Assembly: GCF_004103825.1 (NCBI RefSeq)
Contig: NZ_RYFI01000014.1
Coordinates: 77,374-109,530, forward strand
Length of the DNA: 32,157 nucleotides
Reading direction: 5' to 3'
DNA from: Hansschlegelia zhihuaiae
Lineage (GTDB): Bacteria; Pseudomonadota; Alphaproteobacteria; Rhizobiales; Methylopilaceae
Shown here: positions 5,962 to 11,774 of the stretch, piece by piece
Position numbering within the stretch: position 1 is the first letter of the stretch
How the letters are laid out: each line of letters starts with the position of its first letter
Translations under genes and position numbers: made by a program
Notes under the pieces: generated by a model
What the model was told of the DNA's origin: nothing
Database searches by the model: none
Seen by the model: only the letters and a program-made list of their open reading frames with translations

Positions 5962-8109
5962 ATGGCGCTCATCTGCATCCTCGACGACCGCGTCACGAAC
6001 CGGAACATCTTCGCGAAACTCGCCGCGACGATCGAACCGGACGTCACCGTCCGCACCTTCGCCAATCCGGTCGAAGCGCTGGCCTGGATGACGGACAACA
6101 CGCCGGATCTGGTCGTCACCGACTACAAGATGCCGGATCTCGACGGCGCCGAATTCACCCGCCGCTTCCGGCTGCTTCCCGGCTGCGCGGACGTGCCGGT
6201 CGTCGTGCTCACCGTCTATGAGGAGCGCTCCTTCCGCCTGAGCGCGCTCGAGGCCGGCGCGACCGACTTCCTGCAGTCGCCTGTCGACCATCACGAATTC
6301 CTGACGCGCGCCCGCAATCTGCTGAAGATGCGGCGCCAGCAGCTCGTCATAGCGAGCCGCGCCGTCAAGCTCGAGGACGAGCTCCGGACCAGCGAGCGCT
6401 CGCGCGCGCAGGCGCTCCGGGACTCAACCGAGCGGCTCGCCCAGGTGATCGACACCGTGCCGGCGCTGATCAGCGCGGCGGATCGGCAGGGACGCTGCAT
6501 CTTCGTCAACGCCCATCAGGCCGCGATCAAGGGCGTGGGGCCCGCCGACCTGCTCGGCCGCACCGCCATCGACCTGTTCGGACCGGAGCGCGGGAGCCGC
6601 AGCGTCGCGCTCGACAAGCTGATCTGCGAGAGCGGAGCCGCCCTGCCGAGTTTCGAGGAGGAGATCGTCGGAGACGACGGCGAGCGCCGCCACGTGCTGA
6701 CGACCAAGGCGCCGCTGCGCGACGCGACCGGCGAGATCGTCGCGGTGCTCACCACCTCGCTCGACATCACGGACCGCAAGCGCGCGGAACGCCATTTGCG
6801 CCACCTCGCGCATCATGACGCGCTGACCGACCTGCCGAACCGCTCCTTGCTGCACGAGCGCGTCCGGCAAGCGATCGCCCAGGCGCGCCGCACCGACCGC
6901 AAGTTCGCCCTGCATTTGTTCGACCTCGACCGCTTCAAGGGCATCAACGACGTCCTCGGCCACCATTTCGGCGATCGCCTGCTGCGGGCCGTGGCCGACC
7001 GGCTCCGCGCCACCGTCCGCGAATCCGACACCGTGGCGCGGCTCGGCGGCGATGAGTTCGCGATCCTGCAGGACAACGTCACGAGCGTCGAAGACACACG
7101 CGACCTCGCCCGGCGCATCCGCGAGTCGCTCGCCGCTCCGTTCCGCTTCGACGGCGAGGAGGTGTCGACCTCGGCCTCGATCGGCATCGCGGTCTTTCCC
7201 GACAACGGCTTCGACGTCGACGAACTGCTCAAGAACGCCGACCTCGCGATGTATCGCGCCAAGGCGGACGGCCGCGACGGCTTCAAGGCCTTCGCCGCCG
7301 ACATGGACACCACGGCGCGCGCCATCACCGTGCTTGAGAGCGACCTGCGCCGGGCGCTGGCGCGCGGCGAATTCGAGCTTCACTTCCAGCCGCAGGTCGC
7401 GCTGGGCACGGGACGCATCGTCGGCGCCGAGACGCTGATCCGGTGGCGGCGCGAGAACGGCGACATCATCGCGCCGGGCGAGTTCCTGCCGCGGGCCGAG
7501 GAGAACGGCCTCATCGTCCCGATCAACAACTGGGTGCTGCGCGAGGCCTGCGCTCAGGCGGCCGCCTGGACCCGGCAGGGGCTCCCGCCCTTGCGCATCG
7601 CCGTCAATCTGTCGGGCGTCCAGTTCCGCAAGGTGGACATCGAGAATCTCGTGGCGGAGGCGCTCGAGCAGTCCGGCCTCGAACCCGGCCGGCTCGAGCT
7701 CGAGCTCACCGAGACGATCCTGCTGCAGGACACCGGCACTGTCGTGAAGCAGCTCGAGGCGCTGCGCGCCAAGGGCGTGACCTTCTCGATCGACGACTTC
7801 GGGACCGGCTATTCGTCGCTCGCCTATGTGAAGCACTTCCCCGTCGACCGGCTGAAGATCGACCGGAGCTTCATCGGCAACCTCAAGAGCGACGCCAACG
7901 ACGCCGCGATCGTGCGCGCCATCGTCAATCTCGGGCACAGCCTCGACCTCGAGGTCATCGCCGAAGGCGTCGAGACGGCCGCGCAGGTCGCGCATCTCAG
8001 GGCGGAGGGCTGCGACGAGGTCCAGGGCTTCTACTTCGGCCGCCCCATGCCGTCCGACATGTTCGTCGACCTTGTGCGTCGCGAGACGCTCCTGATGAGG
8101 ACTGCGTGA
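5962..8109 (+). CDS. Response regulator with PAS, GGDEF and EAL domains; RpfG-position output protein
   Basis: The 715-aa protein has a receiver (1-130, phospho-acceptor D54 in VVTDYKMPD), a PAS domain (about 155-275), GGDEF (about 285-445) and EAL (about 465-705). The cyclase site is intact (GGDEF 362-366) and carries an RxxD inhibitory site (353-356). The EAL motif reads ETL (490-492) but keeps the catalytic Glu, and DDFGTGYSS (611-619) and the LKID lysine are present, so both cyclic di-GMP synthesis and breakdown are possible. The receiver has S106 where a conserved Lys is expected (FLQSPVD). The receiver end (HEFLTRARNLLKMRRQQ) strongly recalls RpfG. Its stop overlaps the GTG start of the RpfC-like kinase, so the two are translationally coupled and probably form a phosphorelay pair. 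In xanthomonads this role belongs to the HD-GYP protein RpfG. Confidence 0.92.
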   Translation: MALICILDDRVTNRNIFAKLAATIEPDVTVRTFANPVEALAWMTDNTPDLVVTDYKMPDLDGAEFTRRFRLLPGCADVPVVVLTVYEERSFRLSALEAGATDFLQSPVDHHEFLTRARNLLKMRRQQLVIASRAVKLEDELRTSERSRAQALRDSTERLAQVIDTVPALISAADRQGRCIFVNAHQAAIKGVGPADLLGRTAIDLFGPERGSRSVALDKLICESGAALPSFEEEIVGDDGERRHVLTTKAPLRDATGEIVAVLTTSLDITDRKRAERHLRHLAHHDALTDLPNRSLLHERVRQAIAQARRTDRKFALHLFDLDRFKGINDVLGHHFGDRLLRAVADRLRATVRESDTVARLGGDEFAILQDNVTSVEDTRDLARRIRESLAAPFRFDGEEVSTSASIGIAVFPDNGFDVDELLKNADLAMYRAKADGRDGFKAFAADMDTTARAITVLESDLRRALARGEFELHFQPQVALGTGRIVGAETLIRWRRENGDIIAPGEFLPRAEENGLIVPINNWVLREACAQAAAWTRQGLPPLRIAVNLSGVQFRKVDIENLVAEALEQSGLEPGRLELELTETILLQDTGTVVKQLEALRAKGVTFSIDDFGTGYSSLAYVKHFPVDRLKIDRSFIGNLKSDANDAAIVRAIVNLGHSLDLEVIAEGVETAAQVAHLRAEGCDEVQGFYFGRPMPSDMFVDLVRRETLLMRTA

Positions 8110-10691
8110 GCGCGGTCGAGACCGCGGCTGACAAGGGCACACGCAGCCGGTGGCGGTTGCGGCCGATCGCTTTCGTGCGCGCGCGCCTCAAAAACAGGCC
8201 GGACGGCGAGCATGAGATGATTCTGAACAGGCTCGCGATCTGCAGCCTGTTGATCCCCTACCTCCTGATCTCCGGCCTCTTCGACCCGGCCGGCCACGGC
8301 GCGCCTTTCGTCGTGGCGGTCATCTTCACCCTCTTCGCTGTCGGCTTCTTCGCCCACGTCCTCTGGCGTCCGGGCCTCTGCGTGACCCGCCGGGTGATGC
8401 AGATGGTCACGGACATCACGGCGCTGTCCTTCGGGCTTCATTACGGCGGCGAGATCACGTCGATCCTTTATCCGGCCTATCTCTGGATCATCTTCGGCAA
8501 CGGGTTCCGGTTCGGCGTTCCGGCGCTGTTCACGGCGGCGGCGCTCTCGCTCGCCGGCTTCGGGCTGGTCATCCCGACGACCGACTACTGGGCGGAGAAC
8601 GCCCGCCTGTCCTACGGCCTGCTACTCGGCCTGCTGGTGCTTCCCGCCTACGCCGCGACACTGATCAAGAAGCTCGAGCGCGCCCGCCTCGCGGCCGAGG
8701 AGGCGAACCGCGCCAAGAGCCTGTTCCTGGCGAGCGTGAGCCACGAACTTCGGACGCCGCTCAACGCCGTCATCGGCATGACGGACCTCCTCGAGTCGAC
8801 CGACCTCGACGCCGAGCAGCGCGACATGGCCCGGACCGCCGGCGCGTCCGGTCGTTCGCTCCTCGAACTGATCGACGCGCTGCTCAATTTCAGCCGACTC
8901 GAAGCCGGCAAGATGCCGGTCCAGATCACCGACTTCGATCTTCATGACCTGCTTGCGTCGTCCCGCGGCATGCTGGCCGCGCAGGCGCGCGGCAAACACC
9001 TCAGGCTCGGCCTGCACGTCACCCCCCGCACGCCCTATCGGCTGCGCGGCGAGGCGCGGCACATCCGCGACGTGCTCGTCAATCTGATCGGGAACGCGGT
9101 GAAGTTCACCGAGACCGGAGGCGTGGTCGCGAGCGTCGACCTCGTGGGCGGGACGCCGACGCGTCCGCGGCTTCGTTTCGAGGTCGCGGACACCGGCATC
9201 GGAATCGCGACCGAGGCCCGCGTCCGGATCTTCGAGAGCTTCACGCAGGCCGACGAGACCATCATCAACAGCCATGGCGGCACCGGGCTTGGGCTCGCCA
9301 TCTGCAAGCAACTGGTCGAGCTGAACGGCGGCCGGATCGGCGTCGACAGCGAGCCGGGCGTGGGCAGCACGTTCTGGTTCGAGCTCGATCTGGAGCTCGC
9401 CTCCGAAGGCTTCGTGGCGGTCGAACCGGCGCCGCCGCTGATGGTGGCGCTCGCGGCCTCCGAAGAGCGCGCATTTGCGCTTGCGGCCGAGCTCGCCGCG
9501 ATCGGCAGCGCGGCGGAAGCCGCCGTCGATCTCCGCTCCGCCCTGCGGCTGCTCCGCTCCGATATGGCCGGCGGCCGGCGCGTCGTGGTGATCGACGCCA
9601 CAGGTTCCGCTGCGGACGGCGAGGCGATGGCGGGCGCGGTGCGCGCGGTCGACGAAGACCACAGCATCGAGATCGCCTTGATCGACCCCGCGCTCGGCGC
9701 CGGTCTTCCGGACAGCGACGTCAGGCTGCTCTGCGCCTCGAGCGCCGCCGCGCCGGACCGCGCGACCCTGGGAGCGATGGTGCGGATCGCGAGCGTCGGC
9801 GCCGTCGGCCGGACCGCGGCGCCCGTCCGGGCGGCGGCCGACGCGCCGTCGAGACGCCTCTCGATCCTGGTCGCGGAGGACAACCGCACCAATCAGAAAG
9901 TCATTACGAAGGTGCTGGAGCGCGCCGGCCATGAGGTGCAGATCGCCGAAAACGGCGAATTCGCTCTCGACGCACTGACCGAGCGCGCCTTCGACCTGGT
10001 GCTGATGGACGTCAACATGCCGGTGCTCGACGGCGTCGAATGCACCAAGCTCTACCGGTTCGCGTCGATCGGAAAGCCGCGCACACCGATCGTGGCGCTG
10101 ACCGCCGACGCCACCTCGGACGCCCGCGAACGCTGCCTCGAGGCGGGCATGGACGCCTGCCTCACCAAGCCGATCGAGCCCGAGAAACTGCTGTCGATGA
10201 TCGAGGAGATCTGTCGCGGCGCAGCCGGCGTCGCGGTCGCGGAGGCCGAGCGGGCGGCCGTCGAGAGCGGCAAGGTCGACGACGAGATCGTCGCCAACAT
10301 CGCCCGGCACCCGGGCTATCGTCCGGCCAAGCGGGCGGTGGTCGACCGCAACACGCTGGCGGAGCTCGAACAGCTCGGCGGCTCTGATTTCGTCGCCGAA
10401 CTCGTCGAGGAGTTCATCGGGGACGCCGCCGCGGTCCTGCGCTCTCTGCACGAAGCCGTCGAGTCCCGGCAGCCGAGCGTGTTCCGGGAGCAGGCCCACG
10501 CGCTGAGAAGCGGCGCCGCCAATATCGGCGCGCGCGGCATGTACGAGATCTGTCTGTCCTACCGCAACGCCGACGCCCACGACCTCGCGGCTCACGGCGC
10601 CGAGCATCTGCGCCGGCTGGAGAGCGAGTTCGAACGGGTTCGCAAGACCCTGCGACGGCGGTTTCCGGACCGGCGCATCGCCAAGCGCTGA
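8106..10691 (+). CDS. rpfC: RpfC-like hybrid sensor histidine kinase (DSF receptor)
   Basis: The 861-aa inner-membrane kinase has a short cytoplasmic N terminus, five membrane segments (about 38-195), HisKA with phospho-acceptor H213 ([11 protein letters not shown]), HATPase ([26 protein letters not shown]), a degenerate receiver-like spacer, a full receiver with D635 ([11 protein letters not shown]), and an HPt domain with H798 ([13 protein letters not shown]). This matches Xanthomonas RpfC in order and sequence, including [17 protein letters not shown] before the kinase. The start is set at GTG 8106, which overlaps the previous stop (GTGA). The region before the first helix ([11 protein letters not shown]) still resembles RpfC, where this segment senses the fatty-acid signal, so the ATG at 8217 would cut off a conserved part. 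It likely senses a DSF-type cis-2-unsaturated fatty acid and signals to the upstream REC-PAS-GGDEF-EAL protein. Confidence 0.88.
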
Positions 10692-10719
10692 CGTCGGAAG
10701 TCTGCTTCCTCGAAACGTT

Positions 10720-10755
10720 CTGAGGCGCCCGGGCGCGAACGCCCGGACGCCTCAG
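10720..10755. terminator. Bidirectional hairpin between rpfC and rpfF
   Basis: Arms CTGAGGCGCCCGGGCG (10720-10735) and CGCCCGGACGCCTCAG (10740-10755) pair over 16 positions with one mismatch around a CGAA tetraloop. It sits between two convergent genes, 28 bp from the kinase stop and 26 bp from the rpfF stop, so it can serve both. There is no long T-tract on either side. Confidence 0.75.
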
Positions 10756-10781
10756 CTCACGCCCGGCAGGGCTCGGAGAGG

Positions 10782-11774
10782 TCAGACCGCGGACAGCACG
10801 GCGTTGGCGATCAGGCGCTTGTCCTGGGCGACGGTGAGGCGCTCCATCTTCCGAAGGTCGGCCTCGTCGAGGCTGAGCGCGGCGTCGACCCAGATCTCGG
10901 TCACGTCGCGCAACTCCTCATAGGGCAGGGGGGCGACGCGCCGTCCGGCGCGGAACAGGGCCGAAAGGCCGTTGTGGCGCCGCAGGTTCCGGGCGAGCAG
11001 CCGATGCGTCTCGGCGACGCCCTCGCCGGGCTCCGCCAGCACCTGGACGAGCCCGAGCGCGTGAAGCTCCTCGGCCGTGTAGAGCTTCCCGCTCGCGATC
11101 ATGCGCTCGGCCTGCAGTCCGCCGAGCCGGCGGGCCAGCATGCTGTAGGCCCCCATGCCCGGGAACAGGTTGAACAGGATCTCGGGCAGGCCGAACTTTG
11201 CGCCGCGTTCGGCGACGATGACGTCGCAGGAGAGCGCCGCCTCGAAGCCGCCGCCGAGCGCGTCTCCCTGCACGAGGGCGACGGTGATCACCGGCAGATC
11301 GAACGCGACCGCGTTCTCATGGAGCACGTCGATGCAGGCTTTGGCGTAGGCCAGCAGGCCGTCGCGGTCTCGGGAACGGATCCAGCCCGCGAACAAATCG
11401 AGGTCGCCGCCGAGATTGTAGATGCCGGGCAGCCGCGACGCGAACACGGCCTGCTTGATCGGGGCGGCGGCGCCGGCGGGCGTTGCGTCGAAGGCGCGCC
11501 TTATCGTGCGTTGATGCGCCGACAGGTCGCGAAGCAGGCCGGGCGTGAAGCTCGGCGCGCCGACCGGCGACATCCAGCACCAGGAGGTCTCCTGGGCGGC
11601 GTCGAGCTCGATCTCGATCTCTTCGTAGCGCGGAGCCGAGATCATCTCGACGGGGGACAGCGAGTGGTCAGTCTCTGCGGCCCTCGGCGCCGCGAGAGCG
11701 GTCCGGAATTTCTCGCGGGCCGCTTCCAACTGCCTGAAGGGTCGGAACTCCGGCACACTCATCGTCATCGCCAT
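10782..11774 (-). CDS. rpfF: RpfF-like DSF synthase (crotonase family)
   Basis: This 330-aa crotonase-fold enzyme should convert a 3-hydroxyacyl-ACP to a cis-2-enoyl fatty acid and release it, giving a diffusible signal factor. The match to Xanthomonas RpfF is strong: YNLGGDLDLFAGWIR, VALVQGDALGGGFEAALS with E178, GLPEILFNLFPGMGAYS with E198, LYTAEELHALGLV, and EIWVDAAL. The two catalytic glutamates are 20 residues apart, as in RpfF (E141/E161), which separates it from ordinary enoyl-CoA hydratases. The start is set at ATG 11774, with GGAG 7 nt upstream; the frame is open further, to 11852, but that stretch resembles nothing. It converges on rpfC, and the upstream region is unusually AT-rich and holds repeats that may control it. 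Confidence 0.9.
   Translation of the reverse strand: MAMTMSVPEFRPFRQLEAAREKFRTALAAPRAAETDHSLSPVEMISAPRYEEIEIELDAAQETSWCWMSPVGAPSFTPGLLRDLSAHQRTIRRAFDATPAGAAAPIKQAVFASRLPGIYNLGGDLDLFAGWIRSRDRDGLLAYAKACIDVLHENAVAFDLPVITVALVQGDALGGGFEAALSCDVIVAERGAKFGLPEILFNLFPGMGAYSMLARRLGGLQAERMIASGKLYTAEELHALGLVQVLAEPGEGVAETHRLLARNLRRHNGLSALFRAGRRVAPLPYEELRDVTEIWVDAALSLDEADLRKMERLTVAQDKRLIANAVLSAV

Follow-up and report, generated by a model that had tools for sequence, protein, structure and literature searches.

Gene organization of the locus

The window analysed here, the whole 32,157-nt stretch of Hansschlegelia zhihuaiae contig NZ_RYFI01000014.1, carries at positions 5962-11774 three genes resembling those of diffusible signal factor (DSF) systems, referred to below as the trio. 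The first gene (5962..8109, + strand, 715 aa) encodes a REC-PAS-GGDEF-EAL regulator, i.e., an RpfG-like receiver with a replaced output, in which Pfam called the domains Response_reg (residues 4-116), PAS_4 (164-274), GGDEF (283-439) and EAL (461-695). Downstream of it lies the gene of an RpfC-type hybrid kinase (8106..10691, + strand, 861 aa), whose start codon overlaps the regulator stop codon in the sequence GTGA (8106..8109, + strand). The kinase has every part of an RpfC-type protein: a membrane input domain (about residues 1-195), HisKA (203-268), HATPase_c (316-430), a receiver (Response_reg, 587-700) and Hpt (765-846), with His213, Asp635 and His798 as the relay residues of HisKA, REC and HPt, respectively. 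The third gene (10782..11774, - strand, 330 aa) encodes an RpfF-type crotonase (Pfam ECH_1) and stands tail to tail with the kinase gene, with 90 bases between them. The first-pass annotation, which was made from the sequence alone, had described this three-gene layout, its coordinates and the GTGA overlap, and the open reading frames, the Pfam domains and the bases at 8106-8109 confirmed them.

Recurrence of the trio

RpfF-type genes were found in 41 of the 297 genomes of the order, the window's genome included, and 38 neighbourhoods were fetched, leaving out the window's own genome and two partial matches. The trio of regulator, kinase and rpfF was present in 16 of the 38, rpfF with a GGDEF-EAL protein and without RpfC in 14 (13 of the membrane type described below and one ended by the contig end), and RpfC with a REC-(PAS)-histidine kinase in two. 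None of these types was recognised in the remaining six, among them L042, with the regulator about 7 kb off and cut by the stretch end, and L050, which lies near a contig end. The kinase input domain was detected in 9 of the 13 genomes of the window's genus. A second set, overlapping with the first (e.g., L038 and L071), comprised 80 loci with names, the best of at least 503 confirmed and so chosen by likeness to the query. Fifty-nine of these 80 carried the trio; the others had a REC-PAS-histidine kinase (5), REC-PAS alone (2), REC-HD-GYP (1), the membrane type (1) or none of the recognised types (12, seven of them near a contig end). The named carriers include Methylopila turkensis, Breoghania, Propylenella, Stappia, Pseudovibrio, Aureimonas, Kaistia, Ancylobacter, Microvirga, Gluconacetobacter, Roseomonas, Acidocella and Inquilinus. 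The set is thus widespread, which the first-pass annotation could not know, any more than it could know of the receiver, HPt and sensor residues that depart from the canonical relay (see below). Since the set recurs in many genera, a chance neighbourhood was rejected. Both genes were on the same strand in all 75 distinct kinase-regulator pairs, an in-frame start with a 4-base overlap was possible in 30 of them (window included), and rpfF was present in 72 of the 75 stretches, in a tail-to-tail position in 67, a divergent one in four and on the same strand in one.

In a sample of the phylum, rpfF was found in 63 of 398 genomes and 23 neighbourhoods were taken. Nine of them, from genomes of the same phylum but another class, contained REC-HD-GYP, RpfC and a convergent RpfF in the same order and on the same strands as in the window, and we infer that they are xanthomonad-like; a tenth locus with this rpfG-rpfC-rpfF order was L144, from a gammaproteobacterial metagenome-assembled genome (MAG). 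The other 14 comprised RpfC without a recognised regulator (3), RpfR-type rpfF with GGDEF-EAL (5), the membrane type (1), PAS-GGDEF-EAL (1), the trio (1, L150) and none of these (3). A sample of the class comprised 385 genomes: 24 had RpfF (E <= 1e-60), 26 had the REC-PAS module (E < 1e-70, picked out of the 39 genomes listed at 1e-30) and 22 had both, without correction for relatedness and with a module profile that also takes in regulators with other outputs.

At two loci of Crenalkalicoccus and Roseomonas (L117:11416-12276 and L148:11250-12014), the regulator adjoining RpfC and RpfF was a REC-PAS protein without an output domain. Alphaproteobacterial-like rpfF genes were also seen under the names Mycobacterium sp. 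KBS0706 (L082, which carries a whole Inquilinus-like set) and Terriglobia MAG (L094), possibly through wrong naming or binning.

Relationship of the receiver to RpfG

In a tree of 134 receivers, the 93 receivers from Rpf loci (75 with GGDEF-EAL, 7 with histidine kinase, 2 REC-PAS and 9 with HD-GYP) were split by a starred branch (100/99) from 29 same-genome receivers, taken from the best 30 of 68 PF00072 matches, and 12 RpfC receivers. The 84 Rpf-locus receivers without HD-GYP formed a starred group inside the 93 (100/97). When 15 standalone REC-HD-GYP receivers were added, 46 Rpf-locus receivers grouped at 84/83.6, which is not starred, and six of the 15 joined the wider group, outside the Rpf-locus receivers. 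BLAST comparisons gave the same kinship: the window receiver scored 139 bits at 50% identity against that of L156, 97-110 bits at 37-42% against the remaining eight receivers of RpfG type, and at most 63 bits against the 29 from its own genome. In a whole-genome search it found itself with 273 bits and then a receiver with 51.5 bits and 36% identity. That the receiver was borrowed from some other regulator within this genome is therefore not favoured, the best such match reaching 40% over 80 residues and 63 bits against the 50% and 139 bits of L156. The first-pass annotation was thus right that an RpfG-like receiver is here attached to PAS-GGDEF-EAL and not to HD-GYP: the protein has a receiver of the RpfG line and lacks the HD-GYP output domain. 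Because the nearest outgroup is REC-HD-GYP, the HD-GYP output was likely the older state, a polarity that depends on the point at which the standalone REC-HD-GYP receivers join the tree.

The alignment of relatives places the likely phospho-acceptor of the receiver at Asp54 (codon 6121..6123, + strand). Asp8, Asp9 and Asp54 were kept in 74 of the 75 distinct regulators, with one gap each, and Thr84 in 75/75. At the position of the conserved receiver Lys the window has Ser106 (codon 6277..6279, + strand), and the 75 regulators have Ser (69), Thr (5) or Ala (1). Ten REC-HD-GYP receivers had Lys in eight and Arg in two (L144 and L156), seven REC-(PAS)-histidine kinase receivers had Ser (5), Thr (1) or Leu (1), and both REC-PAS receivers had Ser.

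The first-pass annotation had raised the question of an RpfG elsewhere in the genome. No RpfG was found in the window's genome (97.5% complete), the sole HD-GYP protein of which has no receiver by Pfam or by the Rpf-receiver profile. Across carriers the absence is not general: 10 of 17 trio carriers, the window's genome included, had no HD-GYP match, and three (G010, G027 and G277) had a separate REC-HD-GYP protein whose receiver scored 122-141 bits on the Rpf-receiver profile, on which the best unrelated receiver tested reached 82 bits.

The PAS-GGDEF-EAL part and RpfR

The GGDEF motif of the regulator (residues 362-366, 7045..7059, + strand) is preceded directly by the RxxD inhibition site (353-356). 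The motif reads GGDEF in 72 and SGDEF in three of the 75 regulators, and RxxD is poorly kept, with Arg in 37/75 and Asp in 49/75 relatives. The EAL motif of the window is ETL, where 73/75 relatives have Ala; its Glu is present in 75/75 regulators, and the other EAL positions, which we take to be catalytic, are kept in 73-75. A predicted structure of the REC-PAS part (mean pLDDT 91.9, pTM 0.60) consists of the receiver, a 55-residue helix (110-164) and the PAS domain, and the matches listed in a fold comparison of this model were filled by receivers. A long helix between domains is a usual way of passing a signal from one to the other.

In the GGDEF-EAL tree, six RpfR rows (one Burkholderia cenocepacia protein and five GGDEF-EAL proteins adjoining rpfF) formed a starred group, and the 25 trio regulators included, out of 75, fell outside it and grouped at 76/79, which is weak support for one origin of their GGDEF-EAL part. 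RpfR carries an N-terminal RpfF-binding domain called FI (PDB 6dga, 6dgn). Its place is occupied in the regulator by the receiver and helix, residues 1-164. Parts of the B. cenocepacia protein matched the RpfR entries 6dga and 6dgg, its N-terminal domain matching 6dga. The only part of the regulators set against the RpfR N-terminal region was the one holding the PAS, and no match was found. The PAS profile of the regulators matched the RpfR PAS with a probability of 95.4, the membrane-type PAS with 95.5 and the REC-PAS-kinase PAS with 100. Neither the tree of the GGDEF-EAL part nor the N-terminal domain favours an RpfR fused to a receiver. For the same reasons, together with a PAS no closer to RpfR than to the membrane type, the claim of the first-pass annotation that the locus combines both known designs was not upheld.

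As the first-pass annotation proposed, the regulator might nevertheless, by analogy with RpfR, have a dual input, being under the RpfC phosphorelay and also binding a fatty acid directly with its PAS domain. This is considered unlikely, as PAS_4 is a very broad family, the PAS profile is as near to the other PAS set adjoining rpfF as to RpfR, and the receiver replaces the N-terminal domain of RpfR. In favour of such an input, all three versions (REC-PAS-GGDEF-EAL, REC-PAS-histidine kinase and REC-PAS) retain a PAS domain, and the PAS_4 domain of Xanthomonas RpfS, the family to which the window PAS belongs, is reported to bind DSF in excerpts of PMC5391125, which cites another paper for it.

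The membrane type, at L051-L055, L059-L063, L066-L068, L145, L175 and L178, consists of RpfF beside a membrane-PAS-GGDEF-EAL protein, without RpfC. These proteins have a predicted membrane domain of about 210 residues, the PAS was PAS_7 in the four that were scanned, and they are perhaps a third, membrane-bound, RpfR-like route. L067 (11395-12099) and L068 (11563-12264) have a second, shorter crotonase frame, so that the membrane-type GGDEF-EAL gene stands between two crotonases.

The RpfF-type crotonase

The RpfF-type synthase of the first-pass annotation, with Glu178 and Glu198 20 residues apart, stood up to comparison: both residues were invariant in 18 aligned RpfF-type proteins, and their stretches align with RpfF of PDB 3m6m. 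Two catalytic glutamates are described for RpfF in the available part of a review (PMC4504480). Among solved structures, the crotonase came closest to 7zq7 (titled crotonase), RpfF 3m6m, 5fus (putative enoyl-CoA hydratase) and RpfF 6dgn, all four with E values from 1.5e-55 to 1.8e-51, and further crotonase structures followed only from 2e-17. In the RpfF tree, the proteins of trio loci were mixed with those of membrane-type loci, and the partner type was thus not tracked by RpfF alone; the loci with RpfR (six) and those with HD-GYP stood together, apart from both, at 86/85.

The protein reached 216.9 bits on the NCBIfam RpfF equivalog NF053515, below its cut-off of 550, and is for that reason termed RpfF-type; it passes the broader NCBIfam crotonase model NF006452. 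These two results would suit a metabolic enzyme, in which case the trio would be no signal system. Such a role is very improbable, since Xanthomonas-type RpfF 3m6m and RpfF 6dgn are among its best solved relatives, far ahead of other crotonases, and its gene is repeatedly linked to that of an RpfC-type kinase.

An RpfF-like crotonase with 39.7% identity over 60% of the query was also seen in the E. coli plasmid records NZ_CP060058.1 and NZ_CP060062.1 (22448-23035).

The RpfC-type kinase

The first-pass annotation described an RpfC-type kinase with five transmembrane segments. HisKA, REC and HPt were found as described; the five segments are plausible only, as the hydropathy scan gave four above threshold. 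For Xanthomonas RpfC, TM1 to TM5 are described in the accessible text of PMC5391125. The input domain of the kinase aligned over 182 columns with RpfC-type kinases from outside the class, and the comparison of 90 input domains from the trio and related sets with 11 from outside the class gave a probability of 100 and an E value of 1.6e-54, the segments RPDxEHE and YLWxxxGNGFRFG being common to both. The receiver of the kinase itself matched the RpfC receiver in 3m6m with 2.4e-22, and the receiver of another kinase matched better (9.7e-28). The HisKA His, receiver Asp and HPt His were kept in 75/75 trio kinases. The residue at HPt H+4 was Ser in 75/75 trio kinases against Gly in 7/7 counted HD-GYP-set kinases, a count that leaves out three kinases with a doubled input domain, which by pattern count also have the HPt Gly and the sensor Gln.

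According to excerpts of PMC5391125, Arg15, Asp17, Ser18, Glu19 and Gln22 of Xanthomonas RpfC are required for DSF binding. The segment Arg15-Gln22 aligns with kinase codons 31-38 (RPDGEHEM, 8196..8219, + strand), and the five sites are R31, D33, G34, E35 and M38; since only three of the five are kept, the kinase is termed RpfC-type. Over the 75 trio kinases the Ser18 site had Ser in 27, Gly in 25, Thr in 12 and Arg in nine, the Glu19 site Glu in 73, and the Gln22 site Met in 55, Ile in 15, Leu in three and Gln in one, compared with Gln in 7/7 HD-GYP-set and 7/7 histidine-kinase-set kinases. With these sensor residues changed, a change of the ligand, or of the contact made with it, is probable. 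The joint change of receiver Lys, HPt H+4 and sensor Gln22 was rejected as proof of co-evolution, as it follows the HD-GYP versus GGDEF-EAL split and may be one event in the tree. In the histidine-kinase sets sensor and HPt are uncoupled, with Gln kept in 7/7 and HPt H+4 being Ser in four and Gly in three.

Two variants of the kinase were also seen. L159, L160 and L174, REC-HD-GYP sets of one genus, have an RpfC-type frame with two tandem copies of the input domain. Inquilinus-type loci (L079:4142-5053, L082:11752-13469, L088:11701-13693) have, between kinase and regulator, additional RpfC-like frames (one or two), truncated to 276-453 aa, comprising the input domain and the start of HisKA and reminiscent of Xanthomonas RpfH.

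Discussion

The trio probably represents DSF-family fatty-acid signalling by an RpfC/RpfG-like system whose RpfG output has been exchanged. The input domain of the kinase is homologous to that of RpfC, the receiver groups with RpfG and the GGDEF-EAL part lies apart from the RpfR group in the tree, and the locus therefore reads as an RpfC/RpfG relay with a replaced HD-GYP output and not as a merger with RpfR. In such a relay, the membrane input domain of the kinase would sense a fatty-acid signal, and phosphate would pass from His213 through Asp635 and His798 to Asp54 of the separate receiver, a route suggested by the conserved residues, the shared ancestry and the gene linkage. The receiver, via the long helix and PAS, would then govern the GGDEF-EAL pair, the kept motifs of which imply that cyclic di-GMP turnover would change. 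By analogy with both known DSF routes, breakdown of cyclic di-GMP is somewhat more to be expected than synthesis when the signal is present. In Alphaproteobacteria the ancestral HD-GYP would have been exchanged for PAS and GGDEF-EAL; certain lineages would have received PAS with a histidine kinase or PAS alone in its stead.

Several observations weigh against this relay. Besides the equivalog score of the crotonase, two DSF-binding residues are replaced in the window kinase (Ser18 by Gly and Gln22 by Met), and Arg15 and Asp17 are kept in only 48/75 and 57/75 trio kinases. The grouping of the receiver with RpfG against standalone REC-HD-GYP is not starred, and the bootstrap had not settled. In the same-genus genomes of L032, L033 and L035, loci counted above among the six neighbourhoods without a recognised type, the kinase-regulator pair lies away from rpfF, and in the class sample four of 385 genomes had the module without RpfF and two RpfF without the module. 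The receiver lacks the conserved Lys in 75/75 regulators, and its activation by phosphate may be unusual.

The last point, together with Ser at HPt H+4 in all trio kinases and Gly in the HD-GYP sets, would fit a coupling that is independent of phosphate. The Lys-less receiver would be a docking module for the kinase or RpfF, the kinase would control RpfF by its own receiver, as the crystal entry 3m6m with RpfF and RpfC receiver chains might suggest, and the regulator would act by another input. This is rather improbable, as the retention of the receiver Asp residues, Thr84 and the HPt His looks like selection for a working relay. Within the output-swapped relay, the altered receiver Lys, HPt H+4 and two DSF-binding residues may mean that ligand and switching are new. 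It is conceivable, though tentative, that the trio forms a separate, widespread alphaproteobacterial branch with an altered RpfC sensor and HPt and a fatty acid other than the known DSFs as signal, a branch whose Lys-less, exchangeable REC-PAS module connects to enzymes of cyclic di-GMP, to a second histidine kinase or to nothing.

The available parts of the 2015 and 2026 reviews (PMC4504480, PMC13220807) give two core DSF routes, RpfC/RpfG with HD-GYP and RpfR with PAS-GGDEF-EAL, and name xanthomonads, Burkholderia and relatives, enterobacteria, Pseudomonas, Leptospirillum and few others, Alphaproteobacteria not being among the taxa in those parts. No description of the trio or of alphaproteobacterial DSF systems of such kind was found among titles and abstract openings, mostly without subscription papers, and the novelty of the arrangement is provisional. 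As a third arrangement in many alphaproteobacterial genera, the trio would bring bacteria of soils, plants and the sea into the range of fatty-acid signalling, and would be a natural experiment in which the output of a phosphorelay was swapped and the receiver kept.

Comparison with known systems

Some of the standalone REC-HD-GYP proteins have related receivers (6 of the 15 used), which branch outside the Rpf-locus receivers (84/83.6), as do those of the others. The TM-PAS(PAS_7)-GGDEF-EAL proteins of the order, and of a Methylobacterium radiotolerans plasmid (locus L178), share with the trio an rpfF adjoining a GGDEF-EAL protein; unlike the trio regulator, they are predicted to be membrane-bound and have neither a receiver nor an adjacent RpfC. 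The RpfF/RpfR system of Burkholderia and Cronobacter also has a PAS-GGDEF-EAL protein adjoining a convergent rpfF, whereas the trio has a receiver for the RpfF-binding domain, a hybrid kinase and a GGDEF-EAL part outside the RpfR group. From Xanthomonas RpfG/RpfC the trio differs in having PAS-GGDEF-EAL for HD-GYP, in the loss of the receiver Lys and in Ser at HPt H+4, and Ser18 and Gln22 of Xanthomonas RpfC are not kept in the window kinase. With the RpfF/RpfC/RpfG system of Xanthomonas, compared through the REC-HD-GYP sets from outside the class, it shares the gene order and strands, the RpfF-type synthase, the homologous kinase input domain and the RpfG-kin receiver.

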